Assembly (NCBI GenBank): GCA_035529075.1
Contig: DATKXK010000001.1
Coordinates: 1 to 61,425, forward strand
Length of the DNA stretch: 61,425 bases
Reading direction: 5' to 3'
Origin: Acidobacteriota bacterium
GTDB lineage: Bacteria > Zixibacteria > MSB-5A5 > GN15 > FEB-12
In this document: positions 44,665-61,425 of the stretch, in pieces
Layout: each line of letters opens with the position of its first letter
Numbering within the stretch: the first letter of the stretch is position 1
The notes under the pieces: generated by a model
What the model saw: the letters and a program-made list of their open reading frames with translations, nothing else
Databases searched by the model: none
What the model was told of the DNA's origin: nothing
Position numbers and translations under genes: made by a program

Positions 44665-44737
44665 GATTCCCCGTTTCACCCGCTTCCGACCGAATATGTG
44701 ATTGCCAGTTATCTCACCGCCGGGTTATACTTGGTTG

Positions 44738-45973: not shown

Positions 45974-45999
45974 GACGGATCCTGCGCGGCAGGCAGGCG

Positions 46000-46032
46000 A
46001 AAGCCCGGTGCACTTTGCACGGGGCTTTCTTT
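46000..46032. terminator. Bidirectional terminator between convergent genes
   Basis: AAAGCCCGGTGCA (46000-46012) pairs with TGCACGGGGCTTT (46016-46028) with one mismatch and a 3-base loop. CTTT follows on the plus side and a short A-tract precedes. It serves both the nuclease gene and the minus-strand gene at 46056. Confidence 0.75.
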
Positions 46033-46055
46033 GAATTCGGCCCTGCCTTCCGGCG

Positions 46056-46625: not shown

Positions 46626-46686
46626 TGTTCCTCCGTGTACTCGTGTGCAATACCTTCGTTTTACAGCCTGCCTCAGGCCAAAGATC

Positions 46687-48177
46687 CTAAAATTCCGTCG
46701 TTTCGTCAACTTCAGTTAAGCTGTTTCGCAACAACTGTACCAGCGAATCCGCCGCTGCCCGGTTGTCCAATTCATCGGCATAAACCCGGGCCGCGGTGAG
46801 CAGCGCTCGCTGGCCGATGGCCGAGTTGGGGAAGCGCTCAAAGATAGAAGTGAGAATACCGGCGGCACCGGCCAGATCGCCCTTCTGACGGAGCAATTCG
46901 GCTTTATAGGTGCGGGCCGTGGCCTCTCTGAGCGTGGAAGGGGATTGCCGGATGACGTCCTCGAAGTACTGTTCGGCGCGTTGGTACCAGATGTCTGACT
47001 CCCTGGGGCGGCCTTCACCGGCGAAATGTCTGGCAAGGAACAGGTAGGCCGACATGGCTTGCTCGGACCCGGCGTAGTTCTCGATCAGAAACCTGTATTC
47101 CGACTCCGCCCGCGCCCAGTTGTCCTCTCGCTCGAATGACTGCGCCTTGGTCAACTGGGCTTGAGGCGTCGTGCGGTAGAAGAACCTGTACCTGCTTTCG
47201 AGGTCCACCAGAATGTTGCGGGCTGCCTGGTAGTCTCCTTTGTGCTGGTGCACGAGGGCCTGCTTGAGCATCACGACCGGTTGGAGAAGCGTATCGGCCG
47301 ACAGAATGTCAGCTTCGATCCGCCGGTAGTGTGCCAGGGCGGTATCGGGCATATCCAGCCCGGTGGCGTACAGGTCAGCTATGTGAAGGCGAATCTGCGC
47401 ATTGATATTTCCCAAGGAATCACGTACGAGGCCGAACTGTTCGATAGCAGGCCGGTACCGGCCGGCCAGTTCGTACAGACGCCCGAGGCCGGCGTGCGAG
47501 GCGGCACCAAGCGGGGCGTCCGCGTAGTCACTGATCAATCGTTGATAGTAATTCTCGGCCACGTCAAGGCGCCGGGATGATTCGGATTCGTTGCCGGCCT
47601 GAATGGTGATCCTGTAAAGGTGCAGGGGCAGGTTGAAAAGTGTCAGGACAATGGAGCCGTCACGGTCAAGCGGCGGATAGAAAAGTTCTAGGGTGCTGTC
47701 GTAGACGGCCATGGCGCTGTCCCATTGGCCGCCGGCCTGCATGGCACGACCCAGGTTGTATCGGGCGGTAATCCCTTCGACGCCCGGGATGCGAACGCGC
47801 TCCAGCAGCCGAGTAATGATCGCCTGGCACGTGTCGAAGTGCCTGAGGGCGAAGAAATGCTGTGACAGCCTGGTGCTGCTTTTGAAGGTCAACTCTTCAA
47901 TCTCTCGAAACTCGGTGGGATACTGCGCGGGGTCAATTGAATCGAGGGCGTGATAGCAGCGTTCGACCAACTCGCCGTAGGCTTTTCGGATGGCCGCGGC
48001 GGTTCCCGGGGCATTTAGCTGGGGCCGAATCGCGGCGTCACGGCTGTTCTTTTCTACAGCATAGTATTCCTTTTCGAGATCGTATCTGAGTCGAACGGCC
48101 GGGTTGTCGGTACATGCCTGATACAGGAGTCCCGTGACGGCCATAGCGGCCAGCAAGTACCCTCTAAAGTTGCTCAT
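46687..48177 (-). CDS. Exported TPR-repeat protein
   Basis: The 496-residue protein has an N-terminal hydrophobic stretch ending LLYQAC, which may be a weak lipobox (Cys22) or an ordinary signal. The remainder is helical repeats of TPR/YfgC-like type with clear pairs such as AASHAGLGRLYELAGRYRPA, ALVHQHKGDYQAARNILVDL and AYLFLARHFAGEGRPRESDI. TPRs bind peptides or act as scaffolds; the partner is unknown. No ribosome-binding site is seen before ATG 48177. It lies upstream of, and probably in one transcript with, the exported protein at 46056. Confidence 0.75.
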   Translation of the reverse strand: MSNFRGYLLAAMAVTGLLYQACTDNPAVRLRYDLEKEYYAVEKNSRDAAIRPQLNAPGTAAAIRKAYGELVERCYHALDSIDPAQYPTEFREIEELTFKSSTRLSQHFFALRHFDTCQAIITRLLERVRIPGVEGITARYNLGRAMQAGGQWDSAMAVYDSTLELFYPPLDRDGSIVLTLFNLPLHLYRITIQAGNESESSRRLDVAENYYQRLISDYADAPLGAASHAGLGRLYELAGRYRPAIEQFGLVRDSLGNINAQIRLHIADLYATGLDMPDTALAHYRRIEADILSADTLLQPVVMLKQALVHQHKGDYQAARNILVDLESRYRFFYRTTPQAQLTKAQSFEREDNWARAESEYRFLIENYAGSEQAMSAYLFLARHFAGEGRPRESDIWYQRAEQYFEDVIRQSPSTLREATARTYKAELLRQKGDLAGAAGILTSIFERFPNSAIGQRALLTAARVYADELDNRAAADSLVQLLRNSLTEVDETTEF

Positions 48178-48323
48178 ATACGCTTGTATCGGCTATAAGT
48201 GGTTATGCTGTAACGGAAGCCAATATAGCCGGCCCGGTTGGTGCAAACAAGGCAAATATCTGTCCGGTGGCTCAACGGTTCCGTTCCGGGTACGGGTCGC
48301 TTGACGCCGGGCGCGGTGTCGGC

Positions 48324-48354
48324 AAAAAAAAGACGGCGCCGGGCGCCGTCTTTT
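48324..48354 (-). terminator. Rho-independent terminator of the PEP-CTERM gene
   Basis: On the minus strand a GACGGC/GCCGTC-centred stem, extended by A/T pairs to AAAAGACGGC, has loop GCCCGGC and is followed by a run of eight T residues. It lies 22 bp after the stop of the gene at 48376. Confidence 0.88.
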
Positions 48355-48375
48355 GAAGTTTCAAAAGGCTCCTGA

Positions 48376-48951
48376 TTACTTACGCCGCAAGGCTCCCAGT
48401 CCGACAAGACCCAGGCCAAGAAGGATCAAAGTCGCGGGCTCCGGCACCGCGGTCGTCACGGTAAGCTCAACCTTGTCATTGAAATAGTGACAGTCCGAGT
48501 CAAAGGCAAAGCCAAACCTGCCGTCAGCCGCATAGGTGCTGAACAAGTCGATCAGTCCCAGGTCGCTGAAAGTATAGGTCAGGTCTATTCCGGGGCCGCC
48601 ACCCAGGGGATCCGACCATGCGTCGATGAGTATACCCTGGCCGGAAAAGAAGTCGGCGGTGGCGTCACGATCAAATATACGAAGTGTGCCGATCTGGGCG
48701 TCGTCCAATAGATGAATGTATAGAAAGTCATTGTCCTCAACGCGGTAATCAGCAATGCCCCTGAAGGTCAGTACAACCTCCCTGATTTCCTCATCGGACT
48801 GCCAGTCTATACCCCACGTGTAGGCATTATACTCATTGAGATCCTGGAGATCGGCCGGACCGGGGTTGAACGTGTACACGTACGCCTGAGACGCCGGGGA
48901 ACCGAGAATGAGAATCACGCAGGCCATAGCGAAGAAGAGGAATATCTTCAT
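48376..48951 (-). CDS. PEP-CTERM-tailed exported protein
   Basis: The 191-residue protein has a signal peptide (MKIFLFFAMACVILILGSPA) and a C-terminal PEP-CTERM tag: VPEPAT, a hydrophobic helix LILLGLGLVGLGAL, then RRK. Such tags direct exosortase-dependent sorting to the surface or extracellular matrix. The middle part is a beta-rich domain (EVVLTFRGIADYRVEDNDFL) with several acidic residues. ATG 48951 has GGGAG five bases upstream. The gene has its own terminator and stands alone next to the phage-like region. No exosortase is in the window. Confidence 0.85.
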   Translation of the reverse strand: MKIFLFFAMACVILILGSPASQAYVYTFNPGPADLQDLNEYNAYTWGIDWQSDEEIREVVLTFRGIADYRVEDNDFLYIHLLDDAQIGTLRIFDRDATADFFSGQGILIDAWSDPLGGGPGIDLTYTFSDLGLIDLFSTYAADGRFGFAFDSDCHYFNDKVELTVTTAVPEPATLILLGLGLVGLGALRRK

Positions 48952-49298
48952 GTCCACTCCCATTGGAAGACGCATCAATCCATTTTACCGACATATATGA
49001 AGCAAATCACATGCCGCCAAACCGGACCAACCGCTCCATCTTAATCTCATGGTGGGCAGCAGGTTACAAGTGCCCCTGCGGTTTACCCGGTGGCCAGGGC
49101 CGGCAGTCTCGGCAGGTCCTTACATAATATAGGCAAGATTGTTCACAATTTGCACACAGGTCAACGCATCCGATAGGGCTGATTACCAAGCCTGTTGGGG
49201 TCGGGACAGGCAGCACGATCTGCGGCGGTGGCCGGGGCAAAATAGATGGCGGTCCTGCGTTGTTGGCGGGTGAGCACAGGCCAGAAAAAGGGTTCCTT
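48952..49298. other. 347-bp gap before the phage-like module
   Basis: No gene supported. It lies between the divergent PEP-CTERM gene and the portal gene and should hold promoters for both. I see no integrase, att repeat or tRNA here that would mark a prophage end. Confidence 0.4.
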
Positions 49299-50570
49299 AT
49301 GAAAAGCAAACCGACCGAAACCTCAGTGCTCGCCGGTACCCCTCCCGGCAGTTCGGGGTTGCCGCGCCTTGTGAAACTCCGGCAAACGACCGGGTTGCGT
49401 TCCCGTGACCGAATGGGAGCCTTGCTGACATGGTCGAACAGCGACGTTGAAAGTGGGCGGTATCGGATCATGCTGTACCGGTTCCTGGCCGATCAGTTGC
49501 CGATCATCAATGCGTGCCTGTGGACGTGGGTCAGGCTGATGGCGGCTCCGGGGGAATATCGAATAGCGGAGACCGGCAGGACCGCCCAGGCGGACAGGGC
49601 GCAGCGGCGCCTTGACCAACTCTGGAGCCAGGGTTACACCAACGTTCTAGGCAACCGCGTCGGTCTCGTGACGCTGCTTCCGGGCCTGGTCACGTCGCTT
49701 CTGAGGGACGGCATGTTCTGCGGGTTTGTCGTAGTGCACCGGGATGGTTCCGGTATCGATCAGTTTTTTCCGGTGGATCCGATTGACATCGTTCGTGAGG
49801 AAACGCGGGGTCAATGGCGGCTGGTGCTGGAGCGGGAGAACAGCCGGATAGACCTGAACAGGCCGGATTTCTACTATCTTCCGCTGCGCCACGGCGTCGA
49901 GGCGCCGTTTGGTCGTTCGATCCTTCAGCCTATCCCGTTCGTCAGTTACATCGAGCAGCAACTCGTGGATGATATGAGGCGGTCGAGCCACAATTCCGGT
50001 TACCACCGTCTGCACGTCAGGATAACGCCGCCGGAGCGGCTGGCCGGAGAATCTGACGACGCCTACACGGACCGAATAGACGGCTATTTCGACTCGACCG
50101 TCAAGATGATCAGGTCGTGCGAGGTAGACGACAACCCGGTGACGTGGGACAACGTGGCCGTCGACTATATAGGTCCGGACAAGAGCCGCGAGGTGTCGAA
50201 CAGCTGGTTCATGAATCACCGGGCGATGATCGAGGATATCTGCGCCGGGACGAACCTGGCCCCGTATCTCCTGGGTTACTCGTACGGAGCGACTACCACC
50301 TGGGCGAGTTTAAAGTTCGACGTCGTGATGCGCCAGGTGCGCTCAGTGCAGACGGAGATCGCGCATTTCCTTGAATGGCTGGGGAACCTCGATCTGGCCT
50401 TGGCCGGTCTGGACGTGAAGTGTCGTTTCGTCTTTGACAACTCCTTTGCATACCAGGCCGTTGACACGTTGGCAGTGCAGTCCGGGCAGATCGAGAACAT
50501 CCTCAAGCTATACAACGCCGGCCTGATTGACGAGGTATCGGCGCGCGAGAAGGCGGAGAATCTAATCTGA
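49299..50570 (+). CDS. Phage portal protein
   Basis: The 423-residue protein has the layout of portal proteins: an N-terminal clip/wing part with LPIINACLWTWVRLMAAPGE, the conserved PIPFVSYIEQQLVDDMRRSS helix region, and a C-terminal MIEDICAGTNLAPYLLGYSY segment typical of the portal family. It forms the ring through which DNA enters and leaves the head. ATG 49299 (AAAGGG before it) is preferred over a TTG 39 bp upstream. It is immediately followed by TerL, the reverse of the commonest terminase-portal order. Confidence 0.78.
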   Translation: MKSKPTETSVLAGTPPGSSGLPRLVKLRQTTGLRSRDRMGALLTWSNSDVESGRYRIMLYRFLADQLPIINACLWTWVRLMAAPGEYRIAETGRTAQADRAQRRLDQLWSQGYTNVLGNRVGLVTLLPGLVTSLLRDGMFCGFVVVHRDGSGIDQFFPVDPIDIVREETRGQWRLVLERENSRIDLNRPDFYYLPLRHGVEAPFGRSILQPIPFVSYIEQQLVDDMRRSSHNSGYHRLHVRITPPERLAGESDDAYTDRIDGYFDSTVKMIRSCEVDDNPVTWDNVAVDYIGPDKSREVSNSWFMNHRAMIEDICAGTNLAPYLLGYSYGATTTWASLKFDVVMRQVRSVQTEIAHFLEWLGNLDLALAGLDVKCRFVFDNSFAYQAVDTLAVQSGQIENILKLYNAGLIDEVSAREKAENLI

Positions 50571-50605
50571 GAGCGGGCGCGACGCCGGCGGAGTGGCGGC
50601 GAGGG

Positions 50606-51901
50606 ATGGTCGAGCCGGCCTTCTTCGCCAAGCGCTTTCTCGGCGCAGAGCTTCATGACGGCCAGCGGCGGTGGCTGGCTGAATCCTCGGCCCGCGAAAA
50701 CGTTCTCGTGACCGGTAATCGCTGGGGCAAGTCATTTGTCTCGGCGGTAAAACTGATTCACCATGCGATATACCGTCCCCGGCGGCTGGAGTTCGACCGT
50801 TGCGGCCGCTACCGGGCCGTCGTGGCATCGATCACGCAGGACCAGGCCAACCTGACCTTCAACCAGGTGGTGCGGTTCATTCGGCGTTCGCCCCTTCTCG
50901 AGTCGCTGGTGACGGCAAGTTCCCGGAGCGGACACCCGAGCCTCACCTTCGGTAACGGTGCGTCGATTGAAGCTCGATCCACCCAGAACCGAGGGGAGTA
51001 CCTGCTGGGCAATGACTATGATCTGTTCATTTTCGATGAGGTTGCGTTCGAGACCGATCCGGAGTACGTGGTCGAGGAGGTCATCATGATGCGGCTGGCC
51101 GACCGGGCGGGACGGCTGGATCTCGTCTCAACGCCGAACGGCAGGAACTGGTTCTACCGTCGCGTAAGGGAGATCGAACGGAGGAAACGGCCCGGATACG
51201 TTCAGTCCGGGGACAGTAGGGAAAACGGTTTCGTCTCGCGCGACTATCTGGACGAGCGCGTCAGGTATTTCAACGAGGCCCGTCTCAAACAGAACATCAT
51301 GGGTCAGTTCGTGGATTCGGGCGGTGAGATCCTGCCGGGCAGGTACGTTGATCGCGCCCTGGAGAAGGCTGCCGGGGTATCGGAACCGGTCACCGCCGCG
51401 CGGCGCTCTTATCTTTCCGGATGGGACCTGGCGCGCAAGCGGACGGCTACGGTCGGCGTGACCGTCGAACTGGTCGACGGTGTTGCGAGAGTCGTAAGGC
51501 TGGAGCGTTTCAGGCGGTTTGACTGGATGGTGGTAATCGAGAAGGTCAAGGCTCGTCAGCGGATGTATCCGGGGCGACTGATCATCGATGCCACCGGCCT
51601 GGGTGACGTCGTCGTCGAGCAACTGGCGGAGTACAATCCGGAGGCGGTGGTGTTCACGCCCGCCGTGAAAGCGGAACTGCTGACCAACGTTGAGCTTTTC
51701 CATGCCCGTGACGCTGTTTCTTATGATCGGTGGGAGATGCCGGACGGAACAGGAGGGGTGTGGTCGCTGGAGGATGAACTGCGGCAGGCACGCTGGGATC
51801 AAAACAGTGACTGCGATGCTCTCATGGCTTTGGCCCTGGCGCTCTGGCCGTTGAGAAAGCGTAGTCGGCCCCAGATCCGGCCGCGGCTGGCCCGAGTCTG
51901 A
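50606..51901 (+). CDS. terL: Terminase large subunit
   Basis: The 431-residue protein has an ATPase with Walker A GNRWGKS (37-43) and Walker B LFIFDE (140-145). A coupling-type motif VSTPNGR and an RNase-H-like nuclease domain follow, with acidic residues Asp274 (SGWDLARKR), Asp328 (LIIDATGLGD) and Asp404 (SDCDALMALALALW). It cuts and pumps DNA into the head. All catalytic residues look intact, so packaging ability is not visibly lost. A CTG at 50567 would overlap the portal stop and has GGAG upstream; the ATG at 50606 is the conservative choice. No small terminase is seen nearby. Confidence 0.88.
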   Translation: MVEPAFFAKRFLGAELHDGQRRWLAESSARENVLVTGNRWGKSFVSAVKLIHHAIYRPRRLEFDRCGRYRAVVASITQDQANLTFNQVVRFIRRSPLLESLVTASSRSGHPSLTFGNGASIEARSTQNRGEYLLGNDYDLFIFDEVAFETDPEYVVEEVIMMRLADRAGRLDLVSTPNGRNWFYRRVREIERRKRPGYVQSGDSRENGFVSRDYLDERVRYFNEARLKQNIMGQFVDSGGEILPGRYVDRALEKAAGVSEPVTAARRSYLSGWDLARKRTATVGVTVELVDGVARVVRLERFRRFDWMVVIEKVKARQRMYPGRLIIDATGLGDVVVEQLAEYNPEAVVFTPAVKAELLTNVELFHARDAVSYDRWEMPDGTGGVWSLEDELRQARWDQNSDCDALMALALALWPLRKRSRPQIRPRLARV

Positions 51902-51932
51902 CGTCCCGAGCCGCCGGTCAGCGGCAAGGAAA

Positions 51933-51963
51933 CGCCCATTGAGGGAAGGACACTCAACGGGCG
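51933..51963 (-). terminator. Hairpin between TerL and the PEP-CTERM gene
   Basis: CGCCC-A-TTGAG (51933-51943) pairs with CTCAA-C-GGGCG (51953-51963), one internal mismatch, 9-base loop. On the minus strand a short T tract follows. It probably stops both convergent transcripts. Confidence 0.55.
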
Positions 51964-51992
51964 CTTCAGGGAGGAGGGTTGGGGAGACTGTA

Positions 51993-52340
51993 CTAAGCTT
52001 TTCTTCGCCGCAGCAAATAGATGGCGCCAAGTCCTCCGGCCAGCAGCAGCAAGGTGGTCGGCTCCGGGACGTTAGTAGGTGCGCCGGGATCGCGCTCCGG
52101 CGGGTTAGTAATCCCGTCGCCGTCACCGGGCGGCATCTGTGCCGTTTGATCGGCCTGGGGCGGCGACTTCGGGGGTTTCTGAGTTTGATCGACCTGGTTC
52201 TGATCAGAGCTCTGGGAATTGTTACCGGGCAGGTTGAATCCGTCGACGGTGTCGAAGGTAACCCCCAGAGCCAGACCGAAAATTATCAGGGCGACAAGCC
52301 ACTTGAGCGGCTGGCTGGGGTTTCGTCTGTAAATCATCAT
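51993..52340 (-). CDS. Small PEP-CTERM-tailed protein inside the phage module
   Basis: The 115-residue protein has a membrane/signal segment (PLKWLVALIIFGLALGVTF), a low-complexity linker rich in Gln, Asp, Pro and Ser, and a PEP-CTERM tag: VPEPTT, then LLLLAGGLGAIYLL and RRRKA. Start ATG 52340 has AAGG eight bases upstream; GTG 52349 is the alternative. It lies against the phage genes in direction and is not a known virion component. It resembles short, proline-rich exosortase substrates. Presence inside a head module suggests a host gene inserted there or a cargo gene of the element. Confidence 0.75.
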   Translation of the reverse strand: MMIYRRNPSQPLKWLVALIIFGLALGVTFDTVDGFNLPGNNSQSSDQNQVDQTQKPPKSPPQADQTAQMPPGDGDGITNPPERDPGAPTNVPEPTTLLLLAGGLGAIYLLRRRKA

Positions 52341-52598
52341 CACAATCACCTTCCGGTCACTTAATGGTAATTCGTTACAGCTGTGTCCTCAGCGAGCAAA
52401 GGTTGTGCCGGGGGCTGCCGGCCGGGCCAAACTGACCCGTTAGTCTGTTATAAGACAGGAGCTTACGCGGATTCCGCGGCGGAGACCGAGGCCTGAAGGC
52501 AGCCCGAGCATCCGGCAACCACTTGCGCAGTTTCGCCGCCGAACTGCCGTTAATGTCGGGCGGGCAGGTCCTTGGAAAAAGACAGGTCAGGAGGAAAA

Positions 52599-54113
52599 AT
52601 GGCCGTAAGTCTGGCACGAGTCAGTGCACAACTCGCCGAGCCCGGCGAGCGTGTCCCGGCAGAACTGATCGATCTGATCAACCGGAACGTTGATCCACCG
52701 ACGACCCTTGGAGCCGACGACGTGTACATCCGCGCCATGTACGTAGTCTCCGATCAGGTAAACAGTTTCGGGGGAAGGTTTCCCCGGGACGAGCACGAAC
52801 GGCTGGCCTCGCTGCTGGTCGATTCGCCGGTAATGGTAGGGCACCGCCGGGACAAGCTGCCGGTCGGACGTACGTTCCACGCCACGAGCGTTATGCGCGG
52901 CGACGTGCAGTGGGTAAAAAGCTACTTTTACTGGCTCAAGTCGGCCGAAGGTTCCGAGAACCTGCGCGACAACATCGACGGCGGCATCTACAAGGAGTGT
53001 TCCGTCGCCTTCACGTACTGCCTGCCTGAGTGCTCGGTATGTAACAAGGACATCCGCGAGTGCGAACATGAACCGTTGCGAGAATACCGTCACGACGGCA
53101 CAATCGTCTCCTGCTGGTACAACTACCGTCAACTGGAACGGGTTCTGGAGACGTCTCTGGTCTACCGTGGAGCCCTGCGGGACACGTCGGTGTCCCGGGA
53201 TCTGAAGTCCGGAGCTGACGGCGCGGATGACAGCCCGGAAACAGCCGACCGACATCTGGCCACGATCGTGAACCTGACGGATCTCGATCCCTCGGCGGAT
53301 TATCTCGTGGTACCGCGGTACGACGGAATACCGATTCTGATCGGCGTTCGTGATAAGACCGTCGTCGTGACGCGACGTGACGGTTCCGTCGTGGACCACC
53401 CGGAGGTGGCGCGTCTGTGCGGGGAAGTCCCTCCAGGCGTGCACACCGGTCACGGGTTGCTTGTCGGATATCGGGGAAAGGAGCGCTGTAGCGGGCGGCA
53501 GGTCGAGAGCTTCCTGGCCGGGGCCGAGTCACCGGTGCGCCGTCTGGTGTTGACGCTGTACCCTGAAACCGCGGGAACGGCGTTATCCTGTTCGGACAAG
53601 TCAGTCCAGCGGTCGGTCAGGGTGATACCTTACAGGGTGGTCTGCCGGGGCGATCTGCACCGCAAGGCTCTTGAGATCATGACACGTGACGGTGTGGAAA
53701 TCTGGCCGGCCGGGCGTTCGCCCGCCGGCACCCGAGGCTATCATTACAGGCCTTCGGCCCCGGAGGTGTACCGCTTGGAGTACACCATCACGCAGGATCG
53801 CCGACCCGGCGACGGCGTGATCACGGTCCGTCATGGCGGTGACGTGACGTGCTTCGAGATCGTCCGACTTGATGTGGAGCGTCTAATGAAGGGCGGGCGC
53901 TTCGTTGCCCGCCGGCTGGCCGGGCCGCCGTCAGAGACCGGGGAAGCGTCGCCGTGCACGGTTGCATCCGGGCAGGTTTCGGGCGTGGACGCCGAGGGTG
54001 ATGGCATGGCGGTTCTGACGGGAGGGAAAACACGAGAACGGTTCATCTTCCGCCCCGTGCTGCTCGGGGGGAGAAGGCAATACCTGTTCTATCGGCAGGG
54101 TGCTCAGTCGTAG
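52599..54113 (+). CDS. Prohead-protease-like domain fused to a degenerate DNA-ligase-like domain
   Basis: The 504-residue protein starts at ATG 52599 with AGGAGG just upstream. Residues about 40-165 resemble a head maturation protease: PVMVGHRRDKLPVGRTFHA with His82, IYKECSVAFTY with Ser135, and a Cys-rich zinc-like insert (Cys141, 145, 148, 155). Residues about 225-320 look like the start of an ATP-dependent DNA ligase: YLVVPRYDGIPILIGV where KYDGxR is expected (Arg240 replaces the adenylated Lys), then VTRRDGSVVDHPEV and HTGHGLLVGY where a ligase has a GE motif. The rest (to 504) is beta-rich and unrecognised. The protease part is likely active on the capsid; the ligase part is probably not. 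Confidence 0.6.
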   Translation: MAVSLARVSAQLAEPGERVPAELIDLINRNVDPPTTLGADDVYIRAMYVVSDQVNSFGGRFPRDEHERLASLLVDSPVMVGHRRDKLPVGRTFHATSVMRGDVQWVKSYFYWLKSAEGSENLRDNIDGGIYKECSVAFTYCLPECSVCNKDIRECEHEPLREYRHDGTIVSCWYNYRQLERVLETSLVYRGALRDTSVSRDLKSGADGADDSPETADRHLATIVNLTDLDPSADYLVVPRYDGIPILIGVRDKTVVVTRRDGSVVDHPEVARLCGEVPPGVHTGHGLLVGYRGKERCSGRQVESFLAGAESPVRRLVLTLYPETAGTALSCSDKSVQRSVRVIPYRVVCRGDLHRKALEIMTRDGVEIWPAGRSPAGTRGYHYRPSAPEVYRLEYTITQDRRPGDGVITVRHGGDVTCFEIVRLDVERLMKGGRFVARRLAGPPSETGEASPCTVASGQVSGVDAEGDGMAVLTGGKTRERFIFRPVLLGGRRQYLFYRQGAQS

Positions 54114-54808
54114 GTTCTCAGACTCAGGACTCTGGTGAGGCCTTCGCCGCGGAAGGTTTGACGCACCAGTCCGATGTTGGGTGCGTAGTTCTCGACCACC
54201 GAGGCCAGGGGTTCCTTGTCGCCGGCGTGCCTATACAGGTGTACCTCGTAGCGGTATGTAGCGCCGCCGAAAGCAGGCACAAAGACCTGTTCGGTACCGA
54301 CGAACGTCTTGGTGAAGTAGAAGCCGAAGTAGCCGAAAAAGAAGGCAACCCTGAAGCTTCCCGAATCGGCTTCATAGACCGGCAGGGCACCATCCCAGGA
54401 TACGTCCTTGTCCGCTGTGCGATCCATCACGACGGCCGGCGTCTGGAACCAGACGATAGCGTCAAGGTCACCAACCTTTCGCCAGTATCCGTTCTGCATG
54501 ATAAAAGGGGACGAGACCTTTAGATTGAGAAGCGGGACGGTATCATTCTTGATCACCCAGTCGCTGCCGCCGCCGGAGACGCGAATGAGTTGCGTGCCGG
54601 TGTCCACTTCAACCTTGTAGCCGCGGATCCAGGTGACGGTGGTATCGACACGTGCATACTCGAGCGTGCGTCCATCCGTGAGGCCGAGCATGTCGGTGCC
54701 GGTGACTATCAGCGAGGGACCGGGGCCGGGCTCTTCTTCGGAATCGTCGCTGCAGGCGGCTGTGAACAAACAAAAACACAAAAAACAGACAGACCAGATG
54801 TTTTTCAC
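54104..54808 (-). CDS. Lipoprotein of unknown function inside the phage module
   Basis: The 234-residue protein begins with a lipoprotein signal (VKNIWSVCFLCFCLFTAAC, lipobox TAAC, Cys19), then an acidic linker (SDDSEEEPGPGPS). GTG 54808 is the start, with AGGAG eight bases upstream. The rest is beta-rich with SLIVTGTDMLGLTDGRTLEY, TVTWIRGYKVEVDTGTQLI and GATYRYEVHLYRHAGDKEPL, a form common in surface lipoproteins of unknown role. Its 3' end overlaps the tail of the convergent protease gene by 10 bp. It is the second opposite-strand exported protein in the head module. Confidence 0.7.
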   Translation of the reverse strand: MKNIWSVCFLCFCLFTAACSDDSEEEPGPGPSLIVTGTDMLGLTDGRTLEYARVDTTVTWIRGYKVEVDTGTQLIRVSGGGSDWVIKNDTVPLLNLKVSSPFIMQNGYWRKVGDLDAIVWFQTPAVVMDRTADKDVSWDGALPVYEADSGSFRVAFFFGYFGFYFTKTFVGTEQVFVPAFGGATYRYEVHLYRHAGDKEPLASVVENYAPNIGLVRQTFRGEGLTRVLSLRTYD

Positions 54809-54887
54809 TGCAGCTTCTCCTTTCTCCGAAGGCAACCTGTGCGCGTTTCGCACGGCCAGTCAACAAAAAAGATTGGGGGTTTGGCGC

Positions 54888-55199
54888 ATGTCGAACGGAT
54901 CAGTACATTTGCCGCTTCATTTAGGGGGACAGTTGCTCAACCTGCTTGTGCTCGCCCTCGGTCTCGCTGCCGCGTACTTCATGACTATCCAGTCGCTCAA
55001 GATCGAACTGGCGGCCAAGGCAGAAGGAGCGGTAGTCGCAACCCTTGACAAAAAGCTGAGCGGTTTTGAGGTCTTTCTGAGGGAAGGAGTGGTAAGCAAA
55101 GAGCAGTTTTACAGGTTTTCGCAGGAAGTCGAGAACCGACTGACGAGGATTGAACACTACCTGACGAGCCAGGCAGGAGGGAGCGTTGGAAAACGGTAA
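54888..55199 (+). CDS. Small membrane protein with coiled coil, holin- or spanin-like
   Basis: The 103-residue protein has one membrane helix near residues 13-33 (GGQLLNLLVLALGLAAAYFM) and a helical tail with heptad character (SKEQFYRFSQEVENRLTRIE). GGGGG stands eight bases before the ATG. Size and layout recall phage holin-like or inner-membrane anchored small proteins, but there is no endolysin next to it and the assignment is a guess. It overlaps the following gene by 14 bp, so the two are coupled. Confidence 0.5.
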   Translation: MSNGSVHLPLHLGGQLLNLLVLALGLAAAYFMTIQSLKIELAAKAEGAVVATLDKKLSGFEVFLREGVVSKEQFYRFSQEVENRLTRIEHYLTSQAGGSVGKR

Positions 55200-55599
55200 G
55201 AGTCACACCGACTACGTCACGGAGTTGCTCGAGACGCTCAACGACGAGAGCATGTCACTCATCGATTTCGACCGTCTCAGGGAGTGGCTGTCCCGGATGG
55301 CTCGCGTTCAGGATGACCGTCGGGAACTAAAAGAGCAGCTTGAGCACCTGCGCAGCGATTACGAGCAGCGTATTGGCGGGATGGTCAAGGCGATGGCGGC
55401 GCTGGACCGCAGGCAGGATTCATGGCCGGAGGCTCTGACCCTGGTCGAGTCTCTGCAATCGATGCCGGCCGGGGAGCTGGTGAGTTGTTACCGGCGGGTG
55501 GCGGCGCGGTTTCGCGACTGCTTTCCGGCCAGTTTCGGCCTGCTTCGCCAATCCGGCAGACCCGGTTCAAGCCGGCAGGATGTAAGTGTCTACAAGTAG
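55186..55599 (+). CDS. Coiled-coil protein of unknown function
   Basis: The 137-residue protein is almost entirely helical, with a likely coiled coil at about 40-85 (DDRRELKEQLEHLRSDYEQR). TTG 55186 is the start, with AGGAGGG upstream. It overlaps the previous small membrane gene and lies just before the decoration/capsid pair, where scaffolding proteins usually sit; scaffold is one possibility, unproven. Confidence 0.5.
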   Translation: MENGKSHTDYVTELLETLNDESMSLIDFDRLREWLSRMARVQDDRRELKEQLEHLRSDYEQRIGGMVKAMAALDRRQDSWPEALTLVESLQSMPAGELVSCYRRVAARFRDCFPASFGLLRQSGRPGSSRQDVSVYK

Positions 55600-55682
55600 C
55601 CGGTGGGAGCCGGCATTCCCCCTTACGCGGGGGAGCCTCCCATAGACAGGATACAGGAACCAGCGAAATTACAGGGGGAATC

Positions 55683-56105
55683 ATGTCAGTACGGGAACAG
55701 AACCTTGACACCATAGCACCGGTCTTGGCAACCTTTTCGATCAAGCAGACGGGCGGTGTCGATGACCTCAAGGACGACCACATCGGTCAGGCGGTCGAAC
55801 TGACGGGCAACTATGAGGTCGGGCCGATCACGGACGGCGGTCAACTCCTCGGGAAACTTGTCAGCCTCACTCTCTCCGACGGCGACGACGGTGATCGCCT
55901 GGCTACCGTTCAGGTCGGCGGTGTCTGTCGGCTGCCGATCTCATCGACGTACCCGTCGCCTGCCGACCGCATCGTGGGCGGAGGCAGCGGCACGGTGAAG
56001 CAGGCGCCGGCGCTTACCGGCGACGATCCGGCCGGCGGTAATATTGCCAGGGGGACGGTCCTGGAAGTGAACGGCACGACGGACTGTCTCGTTCTTCTCA
56101 ACTAA
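55683..56105 (+). CDS. Probable head decoration protein
   Basis: The 140-residue protein lies 12 bp before the capsid gene. It has a beta-rich pattern with GQAVELTGNYEVGPITDGGQ, GKLVSLTLSDGDDGDRLATV and a C-terminal ARGTVLEVNGTTDCLVLLN, recalling DUF2190-like or gpD-like capsid stabilisers. GGGGGAATC stands before the ATG. A short hairpin (CCCCC at 55618-55622, GGGGG at 55629-55633) lies in the gap upstream. Assignment rests on position and fold type. Confidence 0.55.
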   Translation: MSVREQNLDTIAPVLATFSIKQTGGVDDLKDDHIGQAVELTGNYEVGPITDGGQLLGKLVSLTLSDGDDGDRLATVQVGGVCRLPISSTYPSPADRIVGGGSGTVKQAPALTGDDPAGGNIARGTVLEVNGTTDCLVLLN

Positions 56106-56117
56106 CAAGGGGGTCAC

Positions 56118-57221
56118 ATGGATCTAAATACGATGTTCGATGCCGCCGCCGGAACGCGGGCGGAAGCCGATGCCGGCAGGGAGTCTCTTGTGGGCCAGGT
56201 GGATCTTTCGCGTGCGGCCGGGGTCGAAGTGAACCGCGATTTCTACGTTGAGGCCGAAGCGCGGGGGGCGACGCTTTCGGAACTGCTCGAACATGAGGAG
56301 TACGACCCGACACCTGCGGGATGTCCGCTGGACGCTTTCGAGCGGCAGCTTGCGCTGGCCGGGATTCGCCTGAGTGGGAAAGCGCCGACCACGGTCGAGC
56401 AGTTCTTCCAGAAGGCGGCGGCCCTGATGCCGGAGTTCATGCTGCGGGAGATCAAGAAGGGTCAGGCCATGCGTCCGGAACTGCGGCGCCTCGTGGCCAA
56501 CAGCACGGCTGTAGCCAGCAACCGCTACACGCCGTTCCACGTCGACACCTCCAATACTAACAGGTTCTCGTTGCGACCGATCGGCGACGGCGCCGAAGTG
56601 CCGCATCTGCTGGTCACCGAGCAAACGCACGCCGTCAACGTGGCGGACTATGGGCTGGCGCTGCGGGCTAGCTACAAGGCTCTCCGCTACCGCACCACGT
56701 CGCAGTTCCGGGTCCTGCTCTGGTACATCGGGTTCCGGATGCAGACGGACAAGATCGCGATGGTCGTGGACTGCATCATCAACGGCGATGGTAATGACAA
56801 CGCGGCCTCAAAGATCAATTCGGCCACCGGCGGGTCGCTGACGTACGATGATCTCATCTCGCTGTGGGCCCAGTTCGCGCCCTTCGAGATGAACACGATC
56901 ATCTGCCACGTCAACACCCTCAAGACCATCCTGACCATGGACGAGTTCAAGGACCCGCTGGCCGGGTACCGCTTCCAGAATCGCGGCGATCTGTTCAGCC
57001 CGCTCGGCGCCACGCTGATCCGGTCCGATGAGGTACCGACGGACTTCGTGATCGGTATGGATCATCGCTTCGCCGTGGAGGAAGTGGTAACGCAGCCGCT
57101 GGCCGTCGAATACGACAAGATCATCGAGCAGCGCTTTGAGGAGGCGGTCATCTCCGAGTCCGTCTCGTATGCCAAGGTGATCGGCGACGGTTCGGTGATT
57201 CTTGACACGGTGTGGTCATAA
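56118..57221 (+). CDS. HK97-type major capsid protein
   Basis: The 367-residue protein carries the features of HK97-fold capsids that lack a large delta domain: an N-terminal helical segment, then MPEFMLREIKKGQAMRPELR, FHVDTSNTNRFSLRPIGDGA and LALRASYKALRYRTTSQFRV. The core continues with GSLTYDDLISLWAQFAPFEM and MNTIICHVNTLKTILTMDEF; the last part AVEYDKIIEQRFEEAVISES is typical of the closing strands. AAGGGGG stands six bases before the ATG. A strong hairpin follows the stop. It builds the icosahedral shell. Confidence 0.78.
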   Translation: MDLNTMFDAAAGTRAEADAGRESLVGQVDLSRAAGVEVNRDFYVEAEARGATLSELLEHEEYDPTPAGCPLDAFERQLALAGIRLSGKAPTTVEQFFQKAAALMPEFMLREIKKGQAMRPELRRLVANSTAVASNRYTPFHVDTSNTNRFSLRPIGDGAEVPHLLVTEQTHAVNVADYGLALRASYKALRYRTTSQFRVLLWYIGFRMQTDKIAMVVDCIINGDGNDNAASKINSATGGSLTYDDLISLWAQFAPFEMNTIICHVNTLKTILTMDEFKDPLAGYRFQNRGDLFSPLGATLIRSDEVPTDFVIGMDHRFAVEEVVTQPLAVEYDKIIEQRFEEAVISESVSYAKVIGDGSVILDTVWS

Positions 57222-57228
57222 GACGTGC

Positions 57229-57252
57229 GGAGCCCGGAGCTTTCCGGGCTCC
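57229..57252 (+). other. Perfect hairpin after the capsid gene
   Basis: GGAGCCCGG (57229-57237) and CCGGGCTCC (57244-57252) form a 9-bp perfect stem with a 6-base loop. No T-run follows, so it may protect or partly stop the capsid transcript, raising capsid over downstream proteins. Confidence 0.6.
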
Positions 57253-57273
57253 GTGCCGTAAAGCAGGGGAACC

Positions 57274-58686
57274 ATGCAGAACAAGCTCATACAATCTTCG
57301 GCGCTGGCGCCGCTCGGCGAATCGTTCGGGCGGAGACTGTTGCAGGTGGCGGCGGGAGAATTCAGCGGACGGCTGGCGGCGCTCATGCAGTCGTCAGCCG
57401 GCGACATTGCCTTGTCCTACGCAGACCCTCCGTACACCTCGTGGTCGAATCTGCAAACGCTCGTGTCGGACGCCGCCGACACGGCTTTCGACTGTCTCAT
57501 CGAGACCAGCGGGGATATCCACCTCGTTTACACGGCGACCGGCACCTGCTACCTGGTGACTCGGAAGCTGACGCTCTCGGGCGGGACCTGGTCAGCCGGC
57601 TCCCAGGTGACGATCTACGACGGCGGTCAGTGTTACAGTCCGTCAATCGTCCGCGAATCGTCGGGCAAGCTCTGGGTGAGTTATGCCTGCTTTTCCCCTC
57701 CCGTGTGCACTCTGTACATCAAGTCGTCGGCCGACGGCGGGGCAAGCTGGGGGTCGGGAGGCTCGGACGCGGGCACCGAACTGGCCGGTCCGAGCATGAA
57801 TCTCTGGGCCAAGACGCTGATCGGTTTGAACGACGTCATCGTGATCTACACGATTGACCTGCAGAAGATTGCCATGTGTTGCCGTCCGCTCAGTGGTGGC
57901 GGCTGGACCTCGGAGTTCGTGATCAGTAGCGGCGGTTCCTTTTCGCAGAACTTTGACGCTGCGGTCAGATCCGACGGGCTTCTGGCTCTCGTTTACGAGG
58001 CGCAGGGACTGTACTACCGTGAGTACGATGGGAACGGCTGGAGTCCCGTAGTACAGATTGACTCGGCGGTCTGCACCTCGCCCAACGTATTCTTTCGGGC
58101 GCAGGCTCCGGCCATCCTGTACCTGTCACTTTTTAACGGAACCCAGCACGTGGTCAAGTACTCGGTGCGCAGGGCAGGGGTTTTCACGGCACCGGAGGCG
58201 CTTGACCGGCGTGCCTGCCCGTTTGATTCGGTGATCCTGTTTGACGCGTCATCCGAGTCCTTCGAGGATCGCACAAGCGAGGCGGCCAGTGGCACCGTCG
58301 GCGATCTTTACCATTCCAAGTCCGGTTGCCTGGTCGGAGACACCGGCGATCAGATTTATCTGGGGATGGAGGCGCCGTTTCGTTACGCGCATTTTGTTCT
58401 GTCAACGGCCGGAAGCGGCGGCACCGTGAGCTACACCTACTGGGACGGCAGCGTTTGGAAGTCGTTGACGCCGGCGGGCGGGATGTCGCACCTGGATGCC
58501 GCTACCGAACGAATACTTCTGTGGCAGGATTACATGCACGTCCCTGACGACTGGCAGAAGTGCTCCATCGATTCGCTCAACCGGTTCTGGATTCGGATCG
58601 AGGTCATATCATCATACGCCACCGGGCCGGTCGGGACACAGGCAACGGCCGTCTCGGAGCTACATAAGCTGATCGTGAGGAGGTGA
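57274..58686 (+). CDS. Sialidase-like beta-propeller structural protein
   Basis: The 470-residue protein shows repeated blades of the form DIHLVYTATGTCYLVTRKLT, GKLWVSYACFSPPVCTLYIK and LLALVYEAQGLYYREYDGNG, the pattern of sialidase/BNR propellers. The last 110 residues (TVSYTYWDGSVWKSLTPAGG and RFWIRIEVISSY) resemble fibre or receptor-binding domains of phage tails. No signal peptide. AGGGGA stands before the ATG. It could be a head-fibre or tail-fibre protein; location between capsid and connector genes is odd. Confidence 0.5.
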   Translation: MQNKLIQSSALAPLGESFGRRLLQVAAGEFSGRLAALMQSSAGDIALSYADPPYTSWSNLQTLVSDAADTAFDCLIETSGDIHLVYTATGTCYLVTRKLTLSGGTWSAGSQVTIYDGGQCYSPSIVRESSGKLWVSYACFSPPVCTLYIKSSADGGASWGSGGSDAGTELAGPSMNLWAKTLIGLNDVIVIYTIDLQKIAMCCRPLSGGGWTSEFVISSGGSFSQNFDAAVRSDGLLALVYEAQGLYYREYDGNGWSPVVQIDSAVCTSPNVFFRAQAPAILYLSLFNGTQHVVKYSVRRAGVFTAPEALDRRACPFDSVILFDASSESFEDRTSEAASGTVGDLYHSKSGCLVGDTGDQIYLGMEAPFRYAHFVLSTAGSGGTVSYTYWDGSVWKSLTPAGGMSHLDAATERILLWQDYMHVPDDWQKCSIDSLNRFWIRIEVISSYATGPVGTQATAVSELHKLIVRR

Positions 58687-58690
58687 GGTC

Positions 58691-59503
58691 ATGTCGTACA
58701 CAAACGCCGACCAGGTCAGGCATCACTTGGTGGCACGGTTCCCCATCCAGGGACGTGTCAGCAACCAGGCTGTTGTCATAAGGTCGGACGATTACATATC
58801 GTTCTACGGCGGCGCCGTTGATCAGTCCTCACTGGTCGTAAAATCGCTTCAGGCAAACGAGCCGACCCGCGTTGACGTGACGCTCGGCGCTGGACGCAAT
58901 GCCCTGGGTACATCGCCCCTGGTGCCGGGATCAGTGGTTGTGGCATCGGACAGCTCCCTCGGCACGGTCTATGTCGAAAACGCCGACTACGTCGTTGACT
59001 ATGAGACCGGTGAACTCATGATCAAGGACGGCGGCTCCTTGTCGGCTGGCCAGGACGTGACCGCCTGGTGCATCGCCTACCGGGAGTATACGGCCGGTGC
59101 CGACTACGAGGTGCGGGCCGATCGGGGTGAAATCCGTAGGCTCGCCGCCGGCGACATCGCCGGCGGGGAAACCCTCTGGCTGGATTACAGCCCGGTTTAC
59201 CAGACGTTTGACGATGAGGTTGTGAACAACGCGGTGATCACGGCCAACGGCTTGGTCGAACGCGAAGTGGACAAGGACCGGCAGTTCGGTGCCGATCCGA
59301 TGCTGGTTACGGCTGCCACATATCGGGCGCTGGAAGTGGTCTGCCGCACGTCCGCGGTGCGCGAACTGTCCGGCACGGACAGCGGTGACAGGAAAGCCCT
59401 GGCCTGGATGAAGCTGGCCGAAGAATACGCGGCGGAAGCAGCCAGGCTCCTGCGGTCATTTCGGCCGCCCGGTATGAACGCATCGGCGCCGAGGCGGGCG
59501 TAA
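58691..59503 (+). CDS. Probable head-tail connector or virion structural protein
   Basis: The 270-residue protein is beta-rich at first (DVTLGAGRNALGTSPLVPGS; YVENADYVVDYETGELMIKD) and helical at the end (ATYRALEVVCRTSAVRELSG; KLAEEYAAEAARLLRSF). The helical end resembles the gp6/adaptor-type connectors. GAGGAGGTGAG precedes the ATG, in tight row with the propeller gene. I recognise no exact family. Confidence 0.5.
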   Translation: MSYTNADQVRHHLVARFPIQGRVSNQAVVIRSDDYISFYGGAVDQSSLVVKSLQANEPTRVDVTLGAGRNALGTSPLVPGSVVVASDSSLGTVYVENADYVVDYETGELMIKDGGSLSAGQDVTAWCIAYREYTAGADYEVRADRGEIRRLAAGDIAGGETLWLDYSPVYQTFDDEVVNNAVITANGLVEREVDKDRQFGADPMLVTAATYRALEVVCRTSAVRELSGTDSGDRKALAWMKLAEEYAAEAARLLRSFRPPGMNASAPRRA

Positions 59504-59513
59504 AGGGGGAATC

Positions 59514-59888
59514 ATGCTTAGCGGACTGGAATTGCTTAAATCACGCCGGGCCTGGTTCGTACCCGACGTCGTAATCTGGGGATTGCCGGGTCTGGGGCAG
59601 GTGCAGTATCTGACTCAGGAAAACGTCGACTCCACGACCTCAGTATTGTTCGGCGCCGGTGAAGTCGGTCAGGCCGAGCAGGAAATCTCGTTCAGCGAGC
59701 TTACCGATCACCGAGGAAACCAGCTCCCTGACTCCATCGGCGCGGCGAGGGTCTTTCCGCGATCAAAGGAGGGACACCTGGTCTTTGTTGTCGGCCAGGA
59801 ATCAAACGAGAAATTCAAGATTGCCCGCGACCCCGACGCGCCGACCGCGGTCACGGCCGACCTGCTGATCTTGGAAATGGGTGAGTAA
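59514..59888 (+). CDS. Small virion-region protein, unknown
   Basis: The 124-residue protein is mixed alpha/beta with VIWGLPGLGQVQYLTQENVD, EQEISFSELTDHRGNQLPDS and VTADLLILEMGE. It lies where head-closure or tail-completion proteins usually sit. AGGGGGAATC stands before the ATG. No family recognised. Confidence 0.5.
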   Translation: MLSGLELLKSRRAWFVPDVVIWGLPGLGQVQYLTQENVDSTTSVLFGAGEVGQAEQEISFSELTDHRGNQLPDSIGAARVFPRSKEGHLVFVVGQESNEKFKIARDPDAPTAVTADLLILEMGE

Positions 59889-60177
59889 GTCGCGCCGGAC
59901 ATCCGGTCGGGCTGAGGCGCAAAAGACGGCTGACCGGCTTCTTTTCGATCTCATACTGCGTGGCTACAAGTCGCTGTGTAAACAGGTAGACGAAAACATG
60001 AAACCGGGGGATTGGCTTAAGATGATCGAACTCCATCGCAAGGTATCGCCGGACAAATCGGCGCAAAAGGAACTCTGGGAAAGCCTGGAGAAGATTCGCC
60101 GCGAGATTCTGGCGGGGAAGAAGGTCGAGGTACAGGCTCGTGACGGTAAGGATGAACGTGCCGGAAGCAAGAAGTAG
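59881..60177 (+). CDS. Small helical protein, unknown
   Basis: The 98-residue protein is basic and helical (ADRLLFDLILRGYKSLCKQV; KELWESLEKIRREILAGKKV). GTG 59881 overlaps the previous gene by 8 bp with GGAA upstream. It may be a tail assembly chaperone-like or packaging accessory protein; nothing in sequence decides. Confidence 0.45.
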   Translation: MSKSRRTSGRAEAQKTADRLLFDLILRGYKSLCKQVDENMKPGDWLKMIELHRKVSPDKSAQKELWESLEKIRREILAGKKVEVQARDGKDERAGSKK

Positions 60178-60244
60178 ACCGCCGTTTCAGGTGCGGCGCC
60201 CGGGCGGCCGGCGCCGGAGTCAACTCGTTCAGGCGGGCTGTCTC

Positions 60245-60955
60245 ATGAAACACTGGTTGCTTGTATTCCTGTTGTTGCCGGTGCCGGCTCAGGCCGGGAG
60301 TTTTACGCTTGGAGCCGGCAGCTACGACGCGGATGCGTCCTATATGTCCAAGCTGGCCACTGGGGACAATTACGGATCGGGCGATTACATTCAGATCTAC
60401 GAGGATGGATCAAGCACCGGTCGCTATCGCGCAGTCGCTGACTGGCCGGAGCTGAAGGATTCTCTGTACGGGGAAGCGGTTACGTCGTGCAGCTTGTTTG
60501 TCAAACTGCATGAGTCCGACAGCAAAGGCGCGACCACCATGCAGTTCGGTGTCTACGGCCTGCTGAGGCACTCCGTTGAGACGGAGATCTGCTGGGATTC
60601 GGCGCAGAAGGACCCCGGCGGCGTGGCCTGGACAACGGCCGGGGCCGACGGAAGCGGCACCGACAGAACCAGCACCATGTATGACGTGCATACCGGGGTG
60701 GGCGACACGATTGCCGGTGAGTGGTTCGCGTTCGACGTGACGTCACTGGTCCAGACGTGGGACGGAACCGATACGGCGAACGCACAGGGGTTTATGATTG
60801 CGCCGATCGAGGATAGTCACAACTGGAAAAACATCCTCTTCTGCAGTGACGACCACGCGACAACCGGAAACAGACCATACGTAAAAGTGGCCACGACCGA
60901 GGGCGGCGAGGTGCTGCTCCCGCGACGCAGGAAGTTACTCACAGGAGGTAGATAA
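60245..60955 (+). CDS. Exported DNRLRE-domain protein inside the phage module
   Basis: The 236-residue protein begins at ATG 60245 with a signal peptide (MKHWLLVFLLLPVPAQAGS). The mature part (about 22-225) matches the DNRLRE domain: DADASYMSKLATGDNYGSGD near the start, SLFVKLHESDSKGATTMQFG in the middle, and EWFAFDVTSLVQTWDGTDTA toward the end. DNRLRE domains occur in secreted and surface proteins and bind carbohydrate-like ligands. A signal peptide on a phage-region protein is unusual. It is followed one base later by another signal-peptide gene. Confidence 0.7.
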   Translation: MKHWLLVFLLLPVPAQAGSFTLGAGSYDADASYMSKLATGDNYGSGDYIQIYEDGSSTGRYRAVADWPELKDSLYGEAVTSCSLFVKLHESDSKGATTMQFGVYGLLRHSVETEICWDSAQKDPGGVAWTTAGADGSGTDRTSTMYDVHTGVGDTIAGEWFAFDVTSLVQTWDGTDTANAQGFMIAPIEDSHNWKNILFCSDDHATTGNRPYVKVATTEGGEVLLPRRRKLLTGGR

Positions 60956-60956
60956 C

Positions 60957-61425
60957 GTGAAGAGACTGTTGGTTTGGCTGGTGCTCTGCCTGACGATCCC
61001 GGGTGCTCTCAATGCGTTTGGGATTGTTAACAGGACCGCCACGCGAGACACGCTTTCGATACCGTTCCAGGTGCTTGACAGTCTGGCCAAACCGGTCGAT
61101 CTGGCCGGCGGTGACTCGGTGTATGTCACCGTCTTTTCACCCGGCGGGACGGTGGTCTTCAAGGACTCGATGGCTTACGATGACGCCAGTCTCAAGTCCT
61201 ACGATTGGGAGGATTTCAACGGCGGCAAGCATTACGCGTACACCGAACAGGTGTCTGTCCTTGACGGATCGAGCACGGCGGACGGGGTGTTCACCTACAT
61301 ATTGGTTGTCGACGACAACACGGGTGCAGACCTCATCACGCCGGTCCACGGGTACTTCCAGATCATCAACTCGAACTTCGAGAGCGGGCTGGATTCAGCC
61401 GGGCTGGCGGCGGAGCGCTCCGGCA
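60957..61425 (+). CDS. Exported protein, truncated by the window edge
   Basis: GTG 60957 with ACAGGAGG seven bases upstream opens a frame that runs to the right edge (156 codons seen). It begins with a signal peptide (VKRLLVWLVLCLTIPGALNA). The mature part is beta-rich (SIPFQVLDSLAKPVDLAGGD, SVYVTVFSPGGTVVFKDS) and recalls N-terminal domains of phage receptor-binding or baseplate upper proteins, but with export signal. It is coupled to the DNRLRE gene. The rest lies outside the window. Confidence 0.55.
   Translation, partial: MKRLLVWLVLCLTIPGALNAFGIVNRTATRDTLSIPFQVLDSLAKPVDLAGGDSVYVTVFSPGGTVVFKDSMAYDDASLKSYDWEDFNGGKHYAYTEQVSVLDGSSTADGVFTYILVVDDNTGADLITPVHGYFQIINSNFESGLDSAGLAAERSG

Follow-up and report, generated by a model that had tools for sequence, protein, structure and literature searches.

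At the right end of contig DATKXK010000001.1, from a genome of the uncultured phylum Zixibacteria (assembly GCA_035529075.1), lies a group of phage-head genes that is likely a vertically inherited, domesticated phage-head cluster, a gene transfer agent (GTA)-like viriform with an unusual, tail-poor architecture. The whole contig (C1 in our numbering; 61,425 bp) was analyzed and is referred to here as the window; it belongs to a genome of 3.04 Mb in 21 contigs. The original prediction had also proposed a domesticated, GTA-like capsid system, a proposal that the results support well. We favor this reading because the cluster is present in a single copy almost throughout the phylum, is congruent with rpoB, has conserved flanks and low ratios of nonsynonymous to synonymous substitution rates (dN/dS), and contains no recognized integration or replication gene. 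A head system kept by selection across a phylum would rank among the deepest such domestications described, and it makes testable which advantage to the host keeps GTAs in place over very long times and whether DNA in a capsid can be delivered without a standard tail.

Distribution, inheritance, and genomic setting

The capsid gene was found in 111 of 132 genomes of the phylum, almost always in a single copy, and in 73 of the 78 genomes of high quality; the large terminase gene (TerL) was found in 115 of 132 and 71 of 78, respectively. Relatives of the window's genome carried the capsid in 100 of 117 cases, with identities mostly of 66 to 81% within the family, 65 to 73% within the order, and 55 to 63% within the class. 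With very few exceptions, named records that contain the capsid are assigned to Candidatus Zixiibacteriota or candidate division GN15. The L059 genome was considered as a representative of a second phylum and dropped, since the phylum search returned the same genome set and placed it inside Zixibacteria.

Gene order was compared with profiles at about 50 loci that represent most of the 19 families (locus counts out of 50 below refer to this set). The arrangement common to most families is portal-TerL-protease-TMcc-C16-C2-capsid-C1-C3-C7-C9-(exported protein)-C0-C18, and variants are small, with C7 and C3 swapped or C9 moved beside TerL. For 28 genomes, trees of the major capsid protein (MCP) and of a concatenate of MCP, C1, C3, and C2 were compared with an rpoB reference tree and 1,000 label shuffles. 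The MCP tree recovered 18 and the concatenate 19 of 25 rpoB splits, against a shuffled maximum of 3, and capsid and rpoB distance matrices gave a Mantel r of 0.84. Judged by distribution, gene order, and tree congruence together, the pattern is far beyond chance. The original prediction had named patchy presence in close relatives as a mark of an ordinary prophage and the dN/dS of the capsid as a check; presence is not patchy, and dN/dS in close pairs was 0.05 to 0.13 for MCP, indicating purifying selection, and 0.08 to 0.25 for C1, C2, and C16.

The capsid is the slowest evolving of the structural genes tested. This bears on the idea that the cluster is an essential-gene-like remnant, some of whose proteins were recruited (for instance, TerL or a ligase for DNA repair) and which makes no particle. 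A ligase fusion in the cluster and a PD-(D/E)XK nuclease next to it do suggest DNA work, but a remnant of this kind fits poorly with so conserved a capsid and with the retention of decoration, connector, and portal proteins alongside it, and we consider it very improbable.

The cluster lies on the + strand from 49.26 kb to the contig end, with two antisense genes inside it. The contig end cuts C0 at position 61425. We recognized the start of contig C14 of the same genome by its C18 gene and joined it through an overlap, the final 141 bases of contig C1 being identical to the first 141 of C14. In order, C14 carries the rest of C0, C18, an exported host protein, lipA, a response regulator, and a membrane protease. 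The cluster, therefore, ends two genes past the window and spans about 13.6 kb, with host genes bordering both sides. The left flank (44702..48978) consists of the PD-(D/E)XK nuclease (+), an exported protein (h12, −), a tetratricopeptide repeat lipoprotein (h8, −), and a PEP-CTERM protein (h20, −). Flanks are constant in the window's order, with h12 and h8 upstream and lipA or the membrane protease downstream.

Extension to the right was the test that the original prediction had set for itself, and it reached host genes (lipA, the response regulator, and the membrane protease) within 1.6 kb on C14 and no tail module. The missing integrase and endolysin genes are not an artifact of the contig end, because the C14 continuation runs into host genes, lipA among them. 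A prophage, whether ordinary or decaying, that the contig end had cut short would account for genes of caudoviricete origin and for the cut at 61425, but it is refuted by a continuation that ends in host genes, a single copy throughout the phylum, purifying selection, and a host-congruent tree.

In several genomes, the cluster has come apart. The portal-TerL part lies 19 kb (G007), 60 kb (G089), 91 kb (G127), or 1.3 Mb (G122) from the capsid part, and in G108, G080, G103, and G107 it sits deep in a separate contig; both parts are retained. A separation of 0.59 Mb in G041 was excluded, since its capsid gene is itself in pieces whose ends overlap, which suggests an assembly effect. Halves that are split yet retained fit a system kept by the host, unlike a mobile element. 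A single molecule is unlikely to carry both halves when the distance between them is large.

Packaging and head proteins and a protease-ligase fusion

The portal, TerL, protease, capsid, and connector-like genes named in the original prediction proved real by profile matches and motifs, and a decoration protein is also present. The portal protein is encoded by the first gene of the cluster (49260..50570, +; phrog_3753, E value of 1.1e-16), and its profile matches 32 of 50 loci and distant gut phages. TerL (50606..51901, +) matches PF03237 (5e-9), phrog_2 (1e-34), and terminase chains in PDB. Its catalytic residues were said to be intact, and the Walker A Lys, the Walker B Asp-Glu, and three nuclease Asp residues are the same in all 33 full-length homologues. 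C9, a short helical protein (59881..60177, +), is probably the small terminase, without a sequence-specific DNA-binding domain in most lineages; this assignment follows from the position of its relative, which is flanked by portal and TerL in families f7, f13, and f17, in some cases with a longer N terminus.

The MCP (56118..57221, +) matches phrog_3922, a major head protein family (4e-61), and PF25209; its profile found no match among PDB sequences. Just upstream is C2, a head decoration (cement) protein (55683..56105, +; 49/50 loci), whose orthologue in G056 matches phrog_4588 (virion structural protein; 2e-7) and phrog_122 (head decoration; 9e-4). C16, a helical protein (55186..55599, +; 29/50 loci), is possibly the scaffold. 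It is preceded by TMcc (54888..55199, +), a small protein with one transmembrane helix and a coiled coil that occurs at 43 of 50 loci and belongs to no family.

Downstream of the capsid gene, the C1 protein (57274..58686, +) is predicted to be a sialidase- or lectin-like beta-propeller with a C-terminal beta domain. Its AlphaFold model has a predicted local distance difference test (pLDDT) score of 94.8, and Foldseek matched it to sialidases and PLL lectins with E values of 1e-9 to 1e-11, and also to phage propellers. It is found at 49 of 50 loci with a length of 464 to 481 amino acids and is a candidate head or tail spike. A podovirus nozzle of the P22 gp10/T7 gp12 type was considered for this protein and dropped, as the fold search returned sialidases and PLL lectins. 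C3 (58691..59503, +), a neck- or tail-type (connector) protein with two beta domains and a helical C terminus, matches phrog_807, a major tail protein with an Ig-like domain (2e-7). Its predicted structure (pLDDT 86) is significantly similar in Foldseek to the phi812 baseplate (1.6e-6) and, more weakly, to the YSD1 major tail protein and the phage Chi neck. C7, a conserved protein of 124 amino acids (59514..59888, +; 47/50 loci; no family), is a possible neck component. For C18, a holin match was obtained at an E value of 0.07 only, and we do not claim holin identity.

The gene at 52572..54113 (+) encodes an S78-like prohead protease followed by a decayed region resembling ATP-dependent DNA ligase and LigD phosphoesterase, as judged by motif, position, and homology. 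The protease of the window has no Pfam match, so the S78-like assignment rests on motif and position; its catalytic residues are kept (His in 48 of 49 sequences, Ser in 49 of 49), and the region is homologous, Cys/His zinc knuckle included, to proteins in the protease position of gut phages. In G086, G120, G122, and G123, which belong to families f11 and f19, the capsid protease is fused to an intact ATP-dependent DNA ligase (PF01068, 1e-27 to 1e-30); the C terminus is weakly similar to the LigD phosphoesterase. The intact genes are located at L131:5983-8184, L137:5663-7912, L113:11789-13870(−), and L138:12049-14352(−). A profile of the ligase region also detects decayed copies in many other lineages, including that of the window (1e-6), where motif I, KYDG in the intact form, reads RYDG in its context and the later motifs are gone. 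Further lineages have a short protease without a ligase region.

The fused domain shares motif I (KYDG), PF01068, and, in f11 and f19, the phosphoesterase-like C terminus with LigD-type DNA ligases/3′-phosphoesterases. It differs from them in being joined to a prohead protease within a capsid cluster and in having lost the catalytic Lys in most lineages, including the window's. Titles and abstracts from an incomplete literature search contained no apparent description of such a protein, and as far as that search could show, the fusion is undescribed.

The nearest phage capsids are those of human gut phages, whose MCPs are 31 to 34% identical to those of the cluster. The gut phages MT835508, MT835952, MT835769, and MT836604 share the portal-protease-(decoration)-capsid order and the zinc-knuckle protease, but their proteases lack the ligase region and their post-capsid genes are unlike C1, C3, C7, C9, and C0. 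A search of viral contigs with the single capsid sequence found no close relative. An alignment search gave one IMG/VR match at 59% identity (L146; IMGVR_UViG_3300027896_005586), which carries the Zixibacteria cluster itself, including the gene in the PEP-CTERM position, and is probably a misclassified chromosomal fragment. It is an example of how virus-mining pipelines can label such loci viral.

Exported proteins and missing phage functions

Exported and membrane proteins are interspersed with the head genes. A small single-pass membrane protein with a PEP-CTERM tail (51993..52349, −; PF07589 above the Pfam cutoff) is encoded between TerL and the protease. Profile matches to this microprotein occur at the same place in 20 of 50 loci; in at least 7 genomes, it is a short transmembrane peptide without PEP-CTERM, and the tail is attached only in some lineages. 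Exosortase was detected in 25 of 30 genomes. We considered whether the tail tracks exosortase, and it does not: G008 has the tail with no exosortase found, and G056 and G065 show the reverse. Between the protease and TMcc genes is a putative lipoprotein (54104..54853, −), in which LFTAAC reads as a lipobox; it has the same antisense position in 7 genomes (6 besides the window's) from families f1, f2, f9, and f14.

C0 (60957..61425, +, continuing on contig C14, positions 1 to 1262 [G000:C14]) is a predicted Sec-exported protein kept at 45 of 50 loci. A crude motif test predicts a signal peptide in nearly all lineages, and its stalk repeats read like those of phage fibers. The preceding gene (60245..60955, +) occupies a variable slot and encodes a protein with a signal peptide that had been labeled DNRLRE. 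That label is weak, the sole match being Disaggr_repeat at 1.6e-4, under its cutoff, and no homologue was found among the other loci. The exported proteins are, in part, conserved members of the cluster: C0, the lipoprotein, and the membrane protein belong to it, and the DNRLRE protein does not. The exported set of the original prediction, thus, stands for the PEP-CTERM protein, the lipoprotein, and the second signal-peptide protein. Its proposal that the particle uses the host's export routes is partly supported by the conservation of C0 and of the membrane/PEP-CTERM microprotein but not by the DNRLRE protein, which is lineage specific, and any placement of the exported proteins on the particle is conjectural.

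These proteins count in favor of an alternative in which the particle is domesticated for something other than gene transfer: a capsid, DNA filled or empty, would be tied to the surface or envelope, with C0 and the PEP-CTERM/transmembrane protein as anchors, and might serve as a DNA-export, matrix, decoy, or nutrient-storage body. The exported C0, membrane proteins, and lipoproteins conserved in the cluster, the lectin- or sialidase-like propeller of C1, and the lack of conserved tail or lysis genes would all suit such a particle. The conserved TerL motor and nuclease, however, are needed for DNA packaging only, the microprotein lacks its PEP-CTERM tail in several lineages, and 5 of 30 genomes yielded no exosortase. 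We think this alternative is unlikely, though it is the rival that we take most seriously.

As the original prediction had noted for 12 kb of the window, no integrase, repressor, replication, or endolysin gene was recognized within the cluster. Nor did we recognize a tape measure, tube, sheath, or baseplate there, C3 being tail or neck like. The tape measure family PF10145 was found in 2 of 32 genomes, with other tape-measure families unsearched and a divergent tail locus possible, and the sheath family PF04984 was found in 2 of 30. Such a patchy occurrence is consistent with scattered ordinary prophages. The genes in question are in G060 (contigs C52 and C55), G115 (C20 and C23), and G046 (C1:738633), and presumably belong to ordinary prophages or contractile systems.

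A head module without a tail is the layout of capsid-forming phage-inducible chromosomal islands (cf-PICIs), satellites that make their own head and use the tail of a helper phage. With portal, TerL, protease, capsid, and connectors and no tail genes, the cluster resembles them, but it lacks their integrase and replication genes, is not mobile, occupies a fixed location, is inherited vertically across the phylum, and has its halves separated in several genomes. A satellite of this type is, in our estimation, highly unlikely.

Comparison with GTAs and proposed mechanism

Well-studied GTAs, such as RcGTA, have tails. The missing recognizable tail is the main puzzle posed by the Zixibacteria cluster and the main reason why it differs from another RcGTA. 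GTAs are proven in few lineages, namely, Alphaproteobacteria, Brachyspira, a Desulfovibrio, and a methanogen (PMC9662315). Three of the six GTA criteria of PMC9662315 can be tested from sequence, and the other three, namely, mostly random host DNA in the particles, incomplete packaging of the element's own genome, and DNA delivery to other cells, are experimental. For the first of the three, proteins derived from caudoviricetes, TerL, portal, and MCP match caudoviricete families, as known here from the genes alone. Endogenization, often at several loci, is evident in the fixed host flanks and in the distance of TerL from MCP in G007, G089, G127, and G108. Vertical inheritance and codiversification with the host are seen in the presence of the capsid in 111 of 132 genomes, the recovery of 18 to 19 of 25 splits, and the Mantel r of 0.84. 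The cluster is, by this standard, GTA-like and unproven as a GTA. The tape measure, tube, and baseplate module of tailed GTAs was not found in it, nor were the integration, regulation, and lysis genes and patchy presence of prophages.

Like RcGTA (Rhodogtaviriformidae) and BhGTA/VSH-1 (Brachygtaviriformidae), the cluster consists of endogenized caudoviricete head genes that are sometimes split, are inherited vertically, and codiversify with the host. Its size of about 13.6 kb is close to the 14.5 kb of the RcGTA core (PMC6854486) and the 16.3 kb of the BhGTA cluster (PMC9662315). It differs from both in having no conserved tail module, a protease-ligase fusion, a span of a whole phylum, and Sec-exported fiber-like and membrane/PEP-CTERM proteins inside the cluster, and none of the GTAs tested is related to it by descent. 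The small terminase of RcGTA has been argued to lack a DNA-binding domain, and random packaging would thereby be accounted for (PMC6854486). The candidate small terminase here also lacks such a domain, which by analogy is at most suggestive of particles that contain mostly random host DNA. In an incomplete literature search, we found no paper linking Zixibacteria with GTAs, and papers naming prophages were silent on the matter by title and abstract.

Several observations weigh against a GTA-like interpretation. In the complete genome G094, the capsid part and a portal are kept but no TerL was detected, and G017 (98% complete) has neither capsid nor TerL; both are natural losses that lend themselves to comparison. 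Stops, frameshifts, or splits affect TerL in G031, G051, and G032, the capsid in L059, and the protease in G007, and could be either assembly error or decay. Neither a conserved tail nor an endolysin was recognized, leaving delivery unexplained, and particles, packaged DNA, and transfer are so far unobserved. ComEC, detected in 29 of 30 genomes, offers a possible DNA uptake route and is permissive only.

If the cluster is a GTA-like system, we propose that capsid, protease, and C16 build a procapsid on the portal, which the protease then matures. TerL, with its intact ATPase and nuclease residues, would pack chromosomal DNA together with the small terminase, probably C9. In the ancestral form, the ligase/phosphoesterase fused to the protease may have repaired or sealed the particle DNA, a role suggested by its domains; in the window's lineage, the decayed region would be only a structural remnant. 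C2, C3, C7, and the propeller C1 may decorate and close the particle, which would have at most a short tail, since conserved genes for a tape measure, a sheath, or a baseplate were not recognized. C0 and the small membrane proteins are encoded alongside these head proteins but would go via Sec, as their signal peptides predict, and we propose from this routing that release or attachment involves the envelope of the producer. Selection would then maintain the system for the benefit of the host and not of the element. Taken as a whole, a DNA-packaging particle owned by its hosts throughout the phylum, with no conventional tail, whose protease has or had a ligase/phosphoesterase for end repair and whose envelope partners are Sec-exported fiber-like and membrane-anchored proteins, is a tentative picture to which we give less than even chances. 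If true, it would represent a way of releasing or transferring DNA that differs from that of tailed GTAs.

Contigs of metagenome-assembled genomes often stop in or near the cluster, within C0 here and directly after the capsid gene in G092 and G100; the repeats of C0 may cause the breaks that fall inside it. About 6 kb upstream of the cluster (window positions 38886-42989), we found a gene for a protein of 1,367 amino acids that combines a Ser/Thr protein kinase domain with five or more PAS domains and a DNA-binding domain of the LuxR type.

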